From positions 62,001 to 126,000 of the forward strand of contig NZ_JAERRB010000006.1 in the NCBI RefSeq assembly GCF_016735595.1: DNA of 64,000 bases, given 5' to 3'. The notes beneath the pieces were generated by a model that was given only the letters and a program-made list of their open reading frames with translations, was not told the DNA's origin and did not search any database. Source of the stretch: Chryseolinea lacunae. Lineage in GTDB: Bacteria > Bacteroidota > Bacteroidia > Cytophagales > Cyclobacteriaceae. Every line of letters begins with the position of its first letter. Positions within the stretch are counted from its first letter, which is position 1. Positions 61,017 through 64,000 of the stretch are shown here, in pieces. Made by a program: the position numbers and the translations under genes.

Positions 61017-63557
61017 CTAAAGCTGAACCGTTATCGAAGTGTAATACAAACCTCCAATAGACGGGCCGCCGAGAAATGAATTGTAGTAGCGGTTGAAAAG
61101 ATTTGAGCCCCCAATTTTCAACAGCACCTTGCTCCACTGATAGCTCACTTGCGCGTCCACCGTTTGATAGGCCGGCACATCGCCGTTCACGAGGAACGAT
61201 TGCCAGTAGTATGAACTTTGCCACCGGTAGGTGACCATGAAGCCGACATGTCCAAAAAACTTGTCGTTGCCTAAGGAAACGTTGGTAATCCATTGAGGTG
61301 TGTTGAAGCCGTCTTCAAGACCGTCGTTGCTGGTTTTGCGTTGCAGCCTGGAGTAGGTGGCGTTGCCGATAATTTTGAAATTGGCGGGCATGCGATAGAC
61401 TAGGCCCAGCGAAGAGCCATAGTTGTAGGTGACGGTGTGCGAGTTGGTCCACATGCGATAACGGTCTTGCTTTTGTTTGTCTACCAGGTAGAAGGCGATG
61501 GAGTCGGGGTTTGTTGTTTGGGGAATGTTCATTTCCACCTGGGCTATAAACTGATCGTAGCGGTTATAATAAAAATCAATGTCCCACGACAACACGCCGC
61601 GCAACAATTGACCACGATATCCAAACTCGAGCGACCGGATATGTTCGGGCTCCATATAAGTATAGTCGTTCTTCGCCAACAGGTTTTGGTTTTTCACGAT
61701 GGCTTCATTCCTGGTGAGGCTGTTGGTGTTTACGCCAGTGTTCACGGCCGCCTGGAATGCGTCGATGGACGCGCGCTTATAGGCCGTTTCAAAAATTCCG
61801 CTCGACATCACGGGCAATCCTCCCACGCGTGTCACACCGCCGCTGTTCACGTTCGAGAAAGCTTCGAACACACTGGGGAAACGGTAGCCGTTCTGATACG
61901 AAAAACGAAAGGCATGTTCCTCCACCGGCGCGAACACGGCAGTGAAACGCGGGTTCCACTTCAGTGCATAATATTCGTTCTTGTCGGCGCGCAACGTGGC
62001 GCCCAGCTTTAGTTTGCCTGAAAAGAAATTGCGCGTGAGCTGCACAAATGCTCCCGACCTACCGTAGGTGATGTTCTTGTCCGTCTCTTTTGGATTGACA
62101 AAATAATTTCCATCGGGCACAATAATGTAGGTTCGATGATCGAAGCCCACCAGCATGTCGATTCCGGAAGCGGTGCGAAAGGATTGAAGCAGTTGTTTGG
62201 TGAGATTAACCTGGCCTTCGGCGTGCACCATGCGCGACTGCACGCGAAGGGCCGCGCCATAATCCCAATTGTTGATGTCGCCAAGTTGTGCAATCAGGTT
62301 TTGAAAGTCGGGTGTGCCGGGTTGAGGTCTTCCGGCATCGGCAGCATCGCGCGCCGTGTGGTGCGCCGTGGCCACGGTTTCGCCATTGGTGACGGCGGCT
62401 TTGTAGGCGTTGGTGTAGTCGCTATACCACACATCGTCTTTCTTGAAACTCTTGTCTATGTTTTCCGACATCGAGCGTGCGTTATACGACTTGCCCGTGT
62501 TTTCAAGATTCACGTATGCGCGAATCACCACCGACGGACTCTGAAAGGTGAGGCCATGTTGTTGCAAGCGATAGTCGTCCAGCCGAAACCGGTTGGCGCG
62601 TTGATACACATTGTCGAGGTTGGCGATGCGACAGGTGTAGCTGATGCGCATGTCGGGCGTGATGGCATAGGCAATAGACGCGTCGGCCTTTGCGTTCCGG
62701 ATGCCATAGTCCACCACATCCCTTTCGTCGTAGCCGGTTCGTGCCACCACATAGTTTTTTCCATTCAGCGAAAGCGTGCGCCGGTTCGATGATTCGTTGC
62801 CATAGGCATTCACCGGATCGCGCGCAGGGTTGTCGGCGCCGGTCAGGCCCGTGCTGCTGTTGGCGTTGGGATTCAGGTCGGTGTGATCGTTGGCTACCCA
62901 GTCGGTGCCGCGCAAAAATGTGGCGTTCACTTTAAACGCAAATCGCGAATGAAACACGTGGGCCCAACGCAAGCTTGTTTCGGTGAAAGGTTTTGTTCCG
63001 AAGTCACTTGCCACGCGGTTGAATCCTATCTTCTGTTGCACACTGAACCCCTTGTTCTTGAAAGGATCTTTTGTGATGAAGTTTGCCAGTCCATTGATGG
63101 CGTTCATGCCATACAAAGCCGACGCTGCACCCGGTATGATCTCCACGCTCTCGATGTCGAGGTCGTTGGGGCCAAGCGCGTTTGCGATGGGCGCGCCCAG
63201 GTGTGGCGCCTGGTTGTCCATGCCGTCTACCAGCTGCACAAAGCGCACGTTGGTGGTGTTGGCAAAGCCGCGGGTGTTGATCACCTTAAACCCCATGCTG
63301 GGTGTTATCATTTGCACGCCCTTTGTGTTTTCGAGCGCATCGAAAAATGAAATTGCCGGCGATCGTTTAAAGTCTGCTGCCGTCACCTTCTCGATAGTGA
63401 CAGGTGATGCGGCGATACGCTCTTCGAGGCGCGAAGCGGTCACCACCACATCCTGCAAGCGCGTAACCTTTGTGGTATCTTCAACTTGCTGCGCCACGGC
63501 GGGCACTGTGAGGCCGAGCATGCTGTACAAACAAAAAAAGTGTACACGTCTTATCAT
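61017..63557 (-). CDS. TonB-dependent outer-membrane receptor, candidate molybdate/tungstate transporter
   Basis: 846 aa. Signal peptide (cleaved about AVA-QQ), a TonB-box-like DVVVTASR right after the N-terminus, plug domain (about 40-165; GVQMITPSMGFKVINTRGF, SVEIIPGAASALYGMNAING) and a 22-strand barrel ending with aromatic-rich strands and a terminal hydrophobic-x-hydrophobic tail (YYTSITVQL). It lacks the carboxypeptidase-regulatory N-terminal domain common in Bacteroidota and has no SusD partner, so it is a small-ligand receptor. The ATG at 63557 (MIRRVHFF) is fixed by the signal peptide and lies next to a ModE-like operator; the upstream gene encodes a ModE-type HTH protein. Ligand assignment to an oxyanion is inferred from that context. 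Confidence 0.9.
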   Translation of the reverse strand: MIRRVHFFCLYSMLGLTVPAVAQQVEDTTKVTRLQDVVVTASRLEERIAASPVTIEKVTAADFKRSPAISFFDALENTKGVQMITPSMGFKVINTRGFANTTNVRFVQLVDGMDNQAPHLGAPIANALGPNDLDIESVEIIPGAASALYGMNAINGLANFITKDPFKNKGFSVQQKIGFNRVASDFGTKPFTETSLRWAHVFHSRFAFKVNATFLRGTDWVANDHTDLNPNANSSTGLTGADNPARDPVNAYGNESSNRRTLSLNGKNYVVARTGYDERDVVDYGIRNAKADASIAYAITPDMRISYTCRIANLDNVYQRANRFRLDDYRLQQHGLTFQSPSVVIRAYVNLENTGKSYNARSMSENIDKSFKKDDVWYSDYTNAYKAAVTNGETVATAHHTARDAADAGRPQPGTPDFQNLIAQLGDINNWDYGAALRVQSRMVHAEGQVNLTKQLLQSFRTASGIDMLVGFDHRTYIIVPDGNYFVNPKETDKNITYGRSGAFVQLTRNFFSGKLKLGATLRADKNEYYALKWNPRFTAVFAPVEEHAFRFSYQNGYRFPSVFEAFSNVNSGGVTRVGGLPVMSSGIFETAYKRASIDAFQAAVNTGVNTNSLTRNEAIVKNQNLLAKNDYTYMEPEHIRSLEFGYRGQLLRGVLSWDIDFYYNRYDQFIAQVEMNIPQTTNPDSIAFYLVDKQKQDRYRMWTNSHTVTYNYGSSLGLVYRMPANFKIIGNATYSRLQRKTSNDGLEDGFNTPQWITNVSLGNDKFFGHVGFMVTYRWQSSYYWQSFLVNGDVPAYQTVDAQVSYQWSKVLLKIGGSNLFNRYYNSFLGGPSIGGLYYTSITVQL

Positions 63558-63558
63558 G

Positions 63559-63588
63559 TTTCGATATATACGAGTGAATATATCGAAA
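63559..63588. promoter_or_regulatory. ModE-like operator before the TonB receptor
   Basis: Perfect 11-bp inverted repeat TTTCGATATAT (63559-63569) / ATATATCGAAA (63578-63588). Its core reads CGATATATA-N6-AATATATCG, close to the enterobacterial ModE box (CGnTATATA-N6-TATATnnCG as I recall it). It ends 1 bp before the receptor ATG and overlaps the presumed -7 box, a repressor position. Confidence 0.65.
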
Positions 63589-63592
63589 GATA
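63585..63592 (-). promoter_or_regulatory. Presumed -7 box (TATCTTTC) of the TonB receptor gene
   Basis: One mismatch to TAnnTTTG, 27 bp before the receptor ATG, overlapping the outer end of the ModE-like inverted repeat. Confidence 0.35.
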
Positions 63593-63684
63593 CAAAAGGG
63601 ATACGGGTCCATAAAATGCTTTTAACAAACGAGACAGAAAATCGTCGGCACCCCACAAACAACACGTGGGCACGGCCCAAAAGA

Positions 63685-64000
63685 TCAGATCAGTTTCAAC
63701 AACGCTTCATTCCTGGCCACGAGGGCCTGTAGTTTATCATCAAGCTTCCGGTAGGCAGCCACCACAGCTTTGGCCGTGGCTGTTACTTCGGCACCACCGC
63801 CCTTTTCGCCGCCCTTGCGCGCTACTACGTAGGGCTTCTGTCCGAGGGCATTCATTTCTTCCACCATATCCCAGGCTTTTTTATAGGACATGCCCATGGC
63901 TTTGGCCGCTTTGGCAATGGAACCGGTGGTTTCAATGTGGCTCAACAGTTCGGCGCGGCCCGGGCCAAAAAATTTCTCGCCGTCAATGTCTATCCAGCAA
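63685..64000 (-). CDS. ModE-type winged-helix regulator, 5' end outside window
   Basis: Partial: the frame is open to the right edge, 105 codons visible including DIDGEKFFGPGRAELLSHI, the typical start of the ModE/LysR-like winged helix. The HTH follows (TTGSIAKAAKAMGMSYKKAW, DMVEEMNALGQKPYV, GGEKGGGAEVT). It stops soon after the dimerising helix, so it has no molybdate-binding (TOBE/MopI) domain: a single-domain ModE-like protein. An internal TTG at 63945 is not the start, since conserved sequence continues upstream. It is transcribed in the same direction as the TonB receptor, 127 bp upstream, and is the natural candidate to bind the operator at 63559-63588. Confidence 0.9.
   Translation of the reverse strand, partial: CWIDIDGEKFFGPGRAELLSHIETTGSIAKAAKAMGMSYKKAWDMVEEMNALGQKPYVVARKGGEKGGGAEVTATAKAVVAAYRKLDDKLQALVARNEALLKLI

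Follow-up and report, generated by a model that had tools for sequence, protein, structure and literature searches.

Does a TonB-dependent receptor gene with a ModE-type operator at its start mark a dedicated outer-membrane route for molybdenum? By the usual view, molybdate gets across the outer membrane by way of porins. The question is raised by one end of a 64,000-nucleotide stretch of the Chryseolinea lacunae genome (hereafter the window; G000:C26:62001-126000, in a genome of 7,916,274 bases on 29 contigs), where G, L and C numbers label the genomes, loci and contigs that we compared and G000 is the window's genome. Here, the minus strand encodes an 846-amino-acid TonB-dependent receptor with plug and beta-barrel, a candidate importer of molybdenum species (61017-63557). 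The next gene upstream, on the same strand, encodes a single-domain ModE-type winged-helix regulator of 113 amino acids (63685-64000 within the window); its stop codon begins at 63685 and its start codon lies at 64026, 26 bases beyond the window edge. Between the two genes sits a predicted ModE-type operator, to which no strand is assigned (63559-63588). Judging from sequence comparison, regulator, operator and receptor very likely form a real unit, and we put the probability that the locus is a ModE-repressed, TonB-dependent importer of molybdenum species at roughly three in four. Sequence comparison supports the regulator family, the operator, its conservation, its co-occurrence with the regulator, and the gene neighborhoods of related receptors; import of molybdenum species is the reading that fits these best.

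The operator is a perfect inverted repeat with two 11-bp arms, TTTCGATATAT at 63559-63569 and ATATATCGAAA at 63578-63588, separated by an 8-nucleotide spacer, and its core reads CGATATATA-N6-AATATATCG (63562-63585). Two reports print the ModE consensus as ATCGNTATATA-N6-TATATANCGAT for the E. coli type (PMC545781) and as ATCGCTATATA-N6-TATATAACGAT (PMC2700814). For scoring, we used a consensus between the two printed forms, with Y/R at the fifth base of each half, to which the window's box matches at 17 of 22 positions; this consensus was not fitted to the loci, but the boxes of an overlapping 40-locus set were already known when it was chosen. Across the entire genome, ATCGNTATATA-N6-TATATANCGAT has one site at up to three mismatches, which is the receptor box with three mismatches itself, and the reversed control pattern has none at the same tolerance. 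The palindrome with ModE-like core and spacing that a first-pass annotation of this DNA had singled out is thus confirmed as the sole genomic site within three mismatches of the published consensus. That annotation's own version of the core has five other genomic matches, with two or three mismatches each; the second-best, the only one of the five inspected, lies inside a 1046-amino-acid receptor-type open reading frame (CarbopepD_reg_2 plus Plug) and was dropped as an operator. The box had also been described as touching the receptor start codon, which reads CAT on the plus strand at 63555-63557. The two are indeed adjacent, but one base lies between them.

Profile searches and predicted fold bear out the earlier view of the upstream gene as encoding a single-domain, ModE-type helix-turn-helix protein. 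The ModE repressor domain model TIGR00637 matches with an E value of 1.5e-25 and 89.1 bits, which falls short of the 98.5-bit cut-off; matches to LysR-type models are weak and also under theirs. A profile built from 26 regulator homologues found three entries in the PDB at E ≤ 0.01, all of them ModE (2IJL, 1.5e-31; 1B9M, 3.2e-23; and 1O7L), and with the AlphaFold model (predicted local distance difference test [pLDDT] score, 93) as query, Foldseek ranks 1 to 10 were all ModE chains. By these comparisons, the regulator is a ModE-type DNA-binding winged-helix protein. Just upstream of its start codon lies an AT-rich imperfect palindrome (ctatataattatagag; L007:5033-5048), possibly a site of autoregulation.

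The first-pass annotation had suggested looking for the same repeat upstream of receptor orthologues in relatives, and had named a lack of conservation there as grounds for rejecting its reading. A ModE-type box is conserved upstream of most orthologues, and the molybdenum reading survives this test. The named receptor loci, the best 80 of 345, were fetched by means of an alignment of 20 orthologues; they come from Chitinophaga, Hymenobacter, Mucilaginibacter, Pedobacter, Spirosoma, Dyadobacter, Flavobacterium, Chryseobacterium, and others, and include one metagenome-assembled genome labelled Williamsia. The place of each orthologue's start codon was estimated by extrapolation from its alignment with the window receptor, and positions -200 to +60 were scored in 77 of the 80 loci (L138, L156, and L167 were dropped as upstream DNA or receptor start was missing). 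As controls we used 486 other open reading frame starts (at least 150 amino acids) in the same loci and 1540 first-order Markov sequences. A box of at least 16/22 is present at 55 of the 77 orthologue starts, versus 4/486 other starts and 9/1540 Markov sequences; at a threshold of 15, the respective counts are 63/77, 17/486, and 64/1540. Because related loci share ancestry, the Mann-Whitney value for the box scores is not a calibrated probability.

Presence of the box follows presence of the regulator. The regulator lies upstream of the receptor, on the same strand and within 2.2 kb, in 41 of the 77 named loci, and a box of at least 15 was seen in 41/43 named loci that contain the regulator versus 22/34 that do not. 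Counted by genome, 32 of 40 that encode a receptor orthologue also have the regulator (E ≤ 1e-10). For a co-occurrence set of 38 loci, one per genome, we scored positions -320 to +90 after excluding four paralogues or second copies (L069, L087, L088, and L089) from an initial 42. Boxes of at least 16 occurred in 27/30 regulator genomes versus 0/8 genomes without it (Fisher, 3.4e-6), and boxes of at least 14 in 30/30 versus 0/8 (2.0e-8), neither value being corrected for kinship. The eight regulator-less genomes span four family labels (f1, f9, f11, and f13), and both states occur within one genus (G363 versus G280 and G318), the G363 box scoring only 14. One locus, L055, adjoins the regulator yet has five mismatches of 18 there, corresponding to 15/22 in the 22-position scoring. 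The 40-locus and 80-locus sets overlap (e.g., L050/L099, L051/L103, and L054/L107) and are not independent replicates.

As for the direction of control, the distance from the end of the 28-mer box to the extrapolated start codon downstream has a median of 17 bp, and 37 of the 55 boxes end within 40 bp. Activator sites normally lie upstream of the promoter; with most boxes this close to the start codon, we infer that repression is more likely than activation. The proposed overlap of the box with a likely -7 element was not confirmed. In the window, a TAtcTTTc sequence abuts the box, and no -33 partner was seen by eye at the expected spacing. Among the homologous boxes, 9/55 are overlapped by the -7 element TAnnTTTG, where about one would be expected, and only two of these nine have a TTG 12 to 25 bp upstream. 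A Bacteroidota -7 element within the box was dropped as a candidate, since nine cases exceed expectation but are too few to build on.

The gene neighborhoods link the receptor family to molybdenum. In a set of 42 loci, the regulator is the commonest neighbor family (10 loci by clustering of open reading frames, the next two families reaching 5 and 4), and tblastn places it near the receptor in 16/42. We then counted neighbors with queries for checked families, namely MoaA, MoaE, MoeA, MoaC, ThiF-type MoeB, XdhC, the FeS and Mo subunits of xanthine dehydrogenase (Xdh), TauE, and Oxidored_molyb. Over 122 loci from overlapping sets, this yielded MoaA in 19, XdhMo in 18, XdhC in 15, XdhFeS in 14, TSUP (TauE/SafE) in 11, and MoeA in 6. 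Of the 80 named loci, 26 have at least one cofactor, molybdoenzyme, or molybdate transport gene close to the receptor; ModC, NifS, and helix-turn-helix queries were excluded from this count, the ModC matches (24 to 35% identity) looking like generic ABC ATPases. Such a proportion, one third of loci, appears far above chance, a judgement based on how little of a genome such clusters take up, not on a random-receptor control. The order XdhMo-XdhC-MoaA-regulator-receptor is shared by seven loci (six with a Chitinophaga label, one with Flavihumibacter), and locus L148 reads MoaA-regulator-receptor-MoeA-TSUP-Oxidored_molyb-MoaE-MoaC. The molybdenum role first proposed for the receptor is therefore supported by cofactor and molybdoenzyme neighborhoods. 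We also note that in G018 (L031:4223-10646), regulator and box lie between XdhC/class-V aminotransferase genes and a xanthine dehydrogenase-type pair, that is, among molybdoenzyme genes without a detected MoaA.

A second receptor family extends this picture. In the same-genus genomes G001 and G002, the regulator and a near-identical palindrome are followed on one strand by genes for a 657-amino-acid TonB-dependent receptor, CCP_MauG, Oxidored_molyb, ModA, ModB, and ModC, while in G022 a box is followed by a TonB-dependent receptor, MauG, and Oxidored_molyb. This 657-residue receptor is only distantly related to that of the window (blastp E value of 0.69; tblastn values down to about 1e-6 with some orthologues). 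In G035, the box lies between the regulator and modABC.

Two kinds of accessory protein recur in these regions. A di-haem CCP_MauG protein is encoded between the second receptor and Oxidored_molyb in G022 and G001 (L024:6315-7421 and L030:7793-8887), with a homologue in the same place in G002. Small Oxidored_molyb-type proteins with a Pfam match are encoded at L025:5539-6036, L030:8887-9405, L032:10218-10730, L073:5687-6184, and L196:918-1445, and a relative without such a match at L047:10432-10935. They recur beside the regulator, ModE boxes, receptors, TSUP genes, or modA, and six aligned members have no conserved cysteine; possibly, they are periplasmic binders of molybdenum cofactor (Moco) or molybdate.

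The receptor itself matches Plug (PF07715, 4.3e-15) and the beta-barrel family (PF00593, 2.6e-24), both above cut-offs. Its closest named matches, among the best 80 of 345, are from a Chitinophaga-labelled metagenome-assembled genome (67%), Parachryseolinea silvisoli (67%), a Cyclobacteriaceae metagenome-assembled genome (63%), and Chryseolinea serpens (62%); plasmid copies at E ≤ 1e-50 are confined to four records, each below 40% identity. The 20-orthologue alignment has a mean column identity of 63%, and its many invariant columns suggest one ligand common to the family. The AlphaFold model (mean pLDDT, 76) points to no ligand. Since TonB-dependent receptors usually take bulky ligands, a chelate or cofactor-like complex is favored over the bare oxyanion.

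The same preference for bulky ligands speaks for cargo of another kind: tungsten, or molybdopterin or Moco itself, instead of molybdate or a molybdate chelate. None of the evidence fixes the ligand, and the regulon repeatedly includes small proteins with an Oxidored_molyb domain that have no conserved cysteine. We nevertheless regard this alternative, which overlaps with our preferred explanation where the cargo is a molybdenum-bearing cofactor, as unlikely, given that the window's genome encodes MoaA and MoaE and so is capable of cofactor synthesis at least in part, and that xanthine dehydrogenase-type enzymes use molybdenum.

The molybdenum context often includes Xdh enzymes, and the cargo could thus be an enzyme substrate. 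According to this explanation, the receptor would import an organic molybdoenzyme substrate, such as a purine, nicotinate, or another N-heterocycle, with ModE coupling its expression to molybdenum supply. Xdh-type subunits do lie within about 8 kb of the receptor in 18 (XdhMo) and 14 (XdhFeS) of the 122 loci (e.g., L109, L127, L070, and L071), and a few boxes are located well upstream of the start, compatible with an activator. However, many of the Xdh loci also hold moaA, moeA, xdhC, or TSUP genes, L148 and L128 have cofactor genes without any Xdh match, and the MoCoBD_2 proteins of the window's genome are encoded on other contigs (C24 and C29). Substrate import would rather predict activation by ModE, whereas the position of most boxes near the start codon fits repression. 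Taken together with the second, distantly related receptor in a box-headed row with modABC, these points make substrate import quite improbable. We consider it very improbable that the protein simply serves ordinary iron-siderophore or heme uptake and that its ModE box and neighborhood are incidental: while the folds nearest to it by Foldseek are Cir, PfeA, PirA, and BtuB and models of heme, B12, and siderophore receptors are among the nearest in NCBIfam, none of the 14 substrate-named NCBIfam models listed exceeds its cut-off (best, 93.6 bits versus 316.85), and box conservation, regulator co-occurrence, and cofactor neighborhoods all argue against it.

Several observations weigh against a ModE-repressed molybdenum importer. 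Lowering the box threshold to 14 admits 67/77 orthologue starts but also 255/1540 Markov sequences and 84/486 control starts; because of the latter, only boxes of at least 16 count as strong for an individual site. Second copies of the receptor (L087, L088, and L089) and the paralogue from the window's own genome (L069) have no clear box, their best sites showing five to six mismatches of 18. At 15/22, a box is missing from 14 of the 77 orthologues, including L125 and L152, which have the regulator close by. Eight of the 14 lie in cofactor or Xdh clusters and L152 has an Oxidored_molyb neighbor; none of the listed molybdenum genes was seen at L091, L110, L111, L125, or L153. Some boxes are distant from the start codon, at about -260 in L064 and L065 and at -172 in L159, positions less readily explained by repression. 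The window receptor itself has no Moco, Xdh, Mod, TSUP, or Oxidored_molyb match in its vicinity, and the regulator-bearing relative G018 has no moaA match. Finally, shut-off of the receptor by an oxyanion-loaded regulator, as drawn in the first-pass annotation, is not shown: the 113-residue, single-domain regulator contains no molybdate-binding Mop/TOBE domain, and TOBE (PF03459) has no match in the whole genome, compared with matches in 12 of 14 control genomes. Any sensing of molybdenum by this protein would thus have to do without such domains of its own.

If molybdenum enters the periplasm through the receptor, it must still cross the inner membrane. The DNA to the right of the window had been considered a possible site of modABC or molybdopterin genes; no modABC was seen among the open reading frames there, read by eye, and ModB (TIGR02141) has no match in the window's genome at E ≤ 1e-3, compared with 22 of 59 genomes above the cut-off. 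Demand for molybdenum in the window's genome is indicated by moaA and the two MoCoBD_2 proteins. Behind moaA follow genes for a small Oxidored_molyb-related protein (29% identity by BLAST, no Pfam match) and a TauE/SafE (TSUP) permease (L047:10944-11681 on contig C25; 5.6e-36). The same TSUP group adjoins the regulator in L035, L036, L073, L075, L076, L181, and L194, and is found in the window's genome plus 15 of 58 relatives; 13 of these 16 genomes have it no further than 5 kb from moaA. Among the 45 of 59 genomes with moaA, 23 have strong ModB, 16 have TSUP, and none has both (Fisher, 1.2e-7, uncorrected for kinship). Strong ModB here comprises the 22 matches above the cut-off plus G007 and G037 at 2e-43, and one of these 24 genomes, G011, has no moaA match. 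Of the six moaA genomes with neither transporter, three have strong MOT1. Only 11 of 40 receptor genomes encode ModB. These distributions make the TSUP permease a candidate non-orthologous replacement of ModABC, which would act as a molybdate importer; one report describes TSUP proteins as poorly characterized, predicted movers of sulfur-based molecules (PMC5840216). MOT1 was rejected as the inner-membrane transporter of the window's genome, which has only weak SulP-type matches (7.9e-8 and 5.9e-6), strong double MOT1 matches being limited to G035, G039, G048, and G058 among the 59 genomes.

Control of cofactor genes by the same type of box is only suggestive in the window's genome. A palindrome upstream of its moaA (L047:9255) scores 15/22, which is also reached by 17/486 control starts. 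The moaA regions of the same-genus genomes G003 and G005 contain palindromes of 18/22 (L202:7853) and 16/22 (L204:6205), respectively, between moaA and moaE, with further matches of 15 to 16 outside this gap (two in G003, three in G005); those of G001, G002, and G004, from the same genus, contain none of at least 15. A Moco riboswitch was not detected at Rfam gathering scores on L007 and L047. Contig C6 of the window's genome holds a further TauE/SafE permease, encoded after the 970-residue paralogous receptor that has no clear box (L069:5613-9568). The receptor in L066 is likewise followed by a homologue of this permease (52%), and pairs of this kind may be more widespread.

Combining these lines, we infer the following course of events. 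The single-domain ModE-type protein would bind the palindrome at the receptor gene start and, sensing that cellular molybdenum suffices, repress the receptor. Upon molybdenum shortage, the receptor would be made and would carry a molybdenum species, be it a chelate, a cofactor-like complex, or the oxyanion, into the periplasm. In this ModB-less genome, the TSUP permease encoded behind moaA would probably move molybdate across the inner membrane, to be used in Moco synthesis for two or more xanthine dehydrogenase-type molybdoenzymes. The more far-reaching proposal, that Bacteroidota possess a widespread receptor family dedicated to molybdenum, with TSUP replacing ModABC and a single-domain ModE sensing without Mop, so that the complete import route across both membranes departs from porin plus ModABC at every step, strikes us as evenly balanced between true and false.

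If true, molybdenum would join the metals taken up by TonB-dependent transport, in many Bacteroidota genera, and a large receptor family without an assigned substrate would gain a function. Testable questions follow, namely which molybdenum ligand is recovered, by what means a ModE that has no molybdate-binding domains gauges metal status, and where Moco-making genomes without ModABC obtain their molybdate. In our literature search, no report connected a ModE operator, or molybdate uptake in Bacteroidota, with a TonB-dependent receptor; regulon databases were outside this search, and a prediction may exist there.

Compared with known systems, the receptor shares its fold with Cir, PfeA, and BtuB but differs from them in sequence (11 to 14% identity in the alignments listed), in length (846 amino acids versus 544 to 707 for most chains), and in its regulator. 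E. coli ModE resembles the regulator here in the sequence and fold of its DNA-binding domain and in an operator consensus with 6-bp inner spacing; by contrast, the regulator described here has no molybdate-binding domains and its genome no TOBE, its target is an outer-membrane receptor, and ModB is missing from the genome. ModE proteins consisting of the DNA-binding domain alone are known from Agrobacterium (2IJL, a 135-residue chain) and Desulfovibrio, and an account of the latter calls their molybdenum-sensing mechanism not clear (PMC545781). The Desulfovibrio sites in that account differ from ours, consisting of the repeat CGGTCACG-N14-CGTGACCG upstream of mod operons. Precedents for molybdenum-related outer-membrane transport come from three further reports. 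In Acidithiobacillus ferrooxidans, an Fe/Mo transport cluster with a TonB system has been predicted (PMC2631029). The Pseudomonas aeruginosa type VI secretion system route via ModA-IcmP likewise constitutes a dedicated outer-membrane molybdate step, built, however, from a secreted ModA and a metalloproteinase outer-membrane protein instead of a TonB-dependent receptor (PMC8602904). In Azotobacter vinelandii, three TonB-dependent siderophore receptors are activated by VnfA1 only when molybdenum and vanadium are absent (PMC9542535). As proposed here, expression of these outer-membrane proteins requires that molybdenum be lacking, but they are siderophore receptors of a nitrogen fixer under an activator, whereas in C. 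lacunae the predicted ModE-type box sits directly on the receptor gene.

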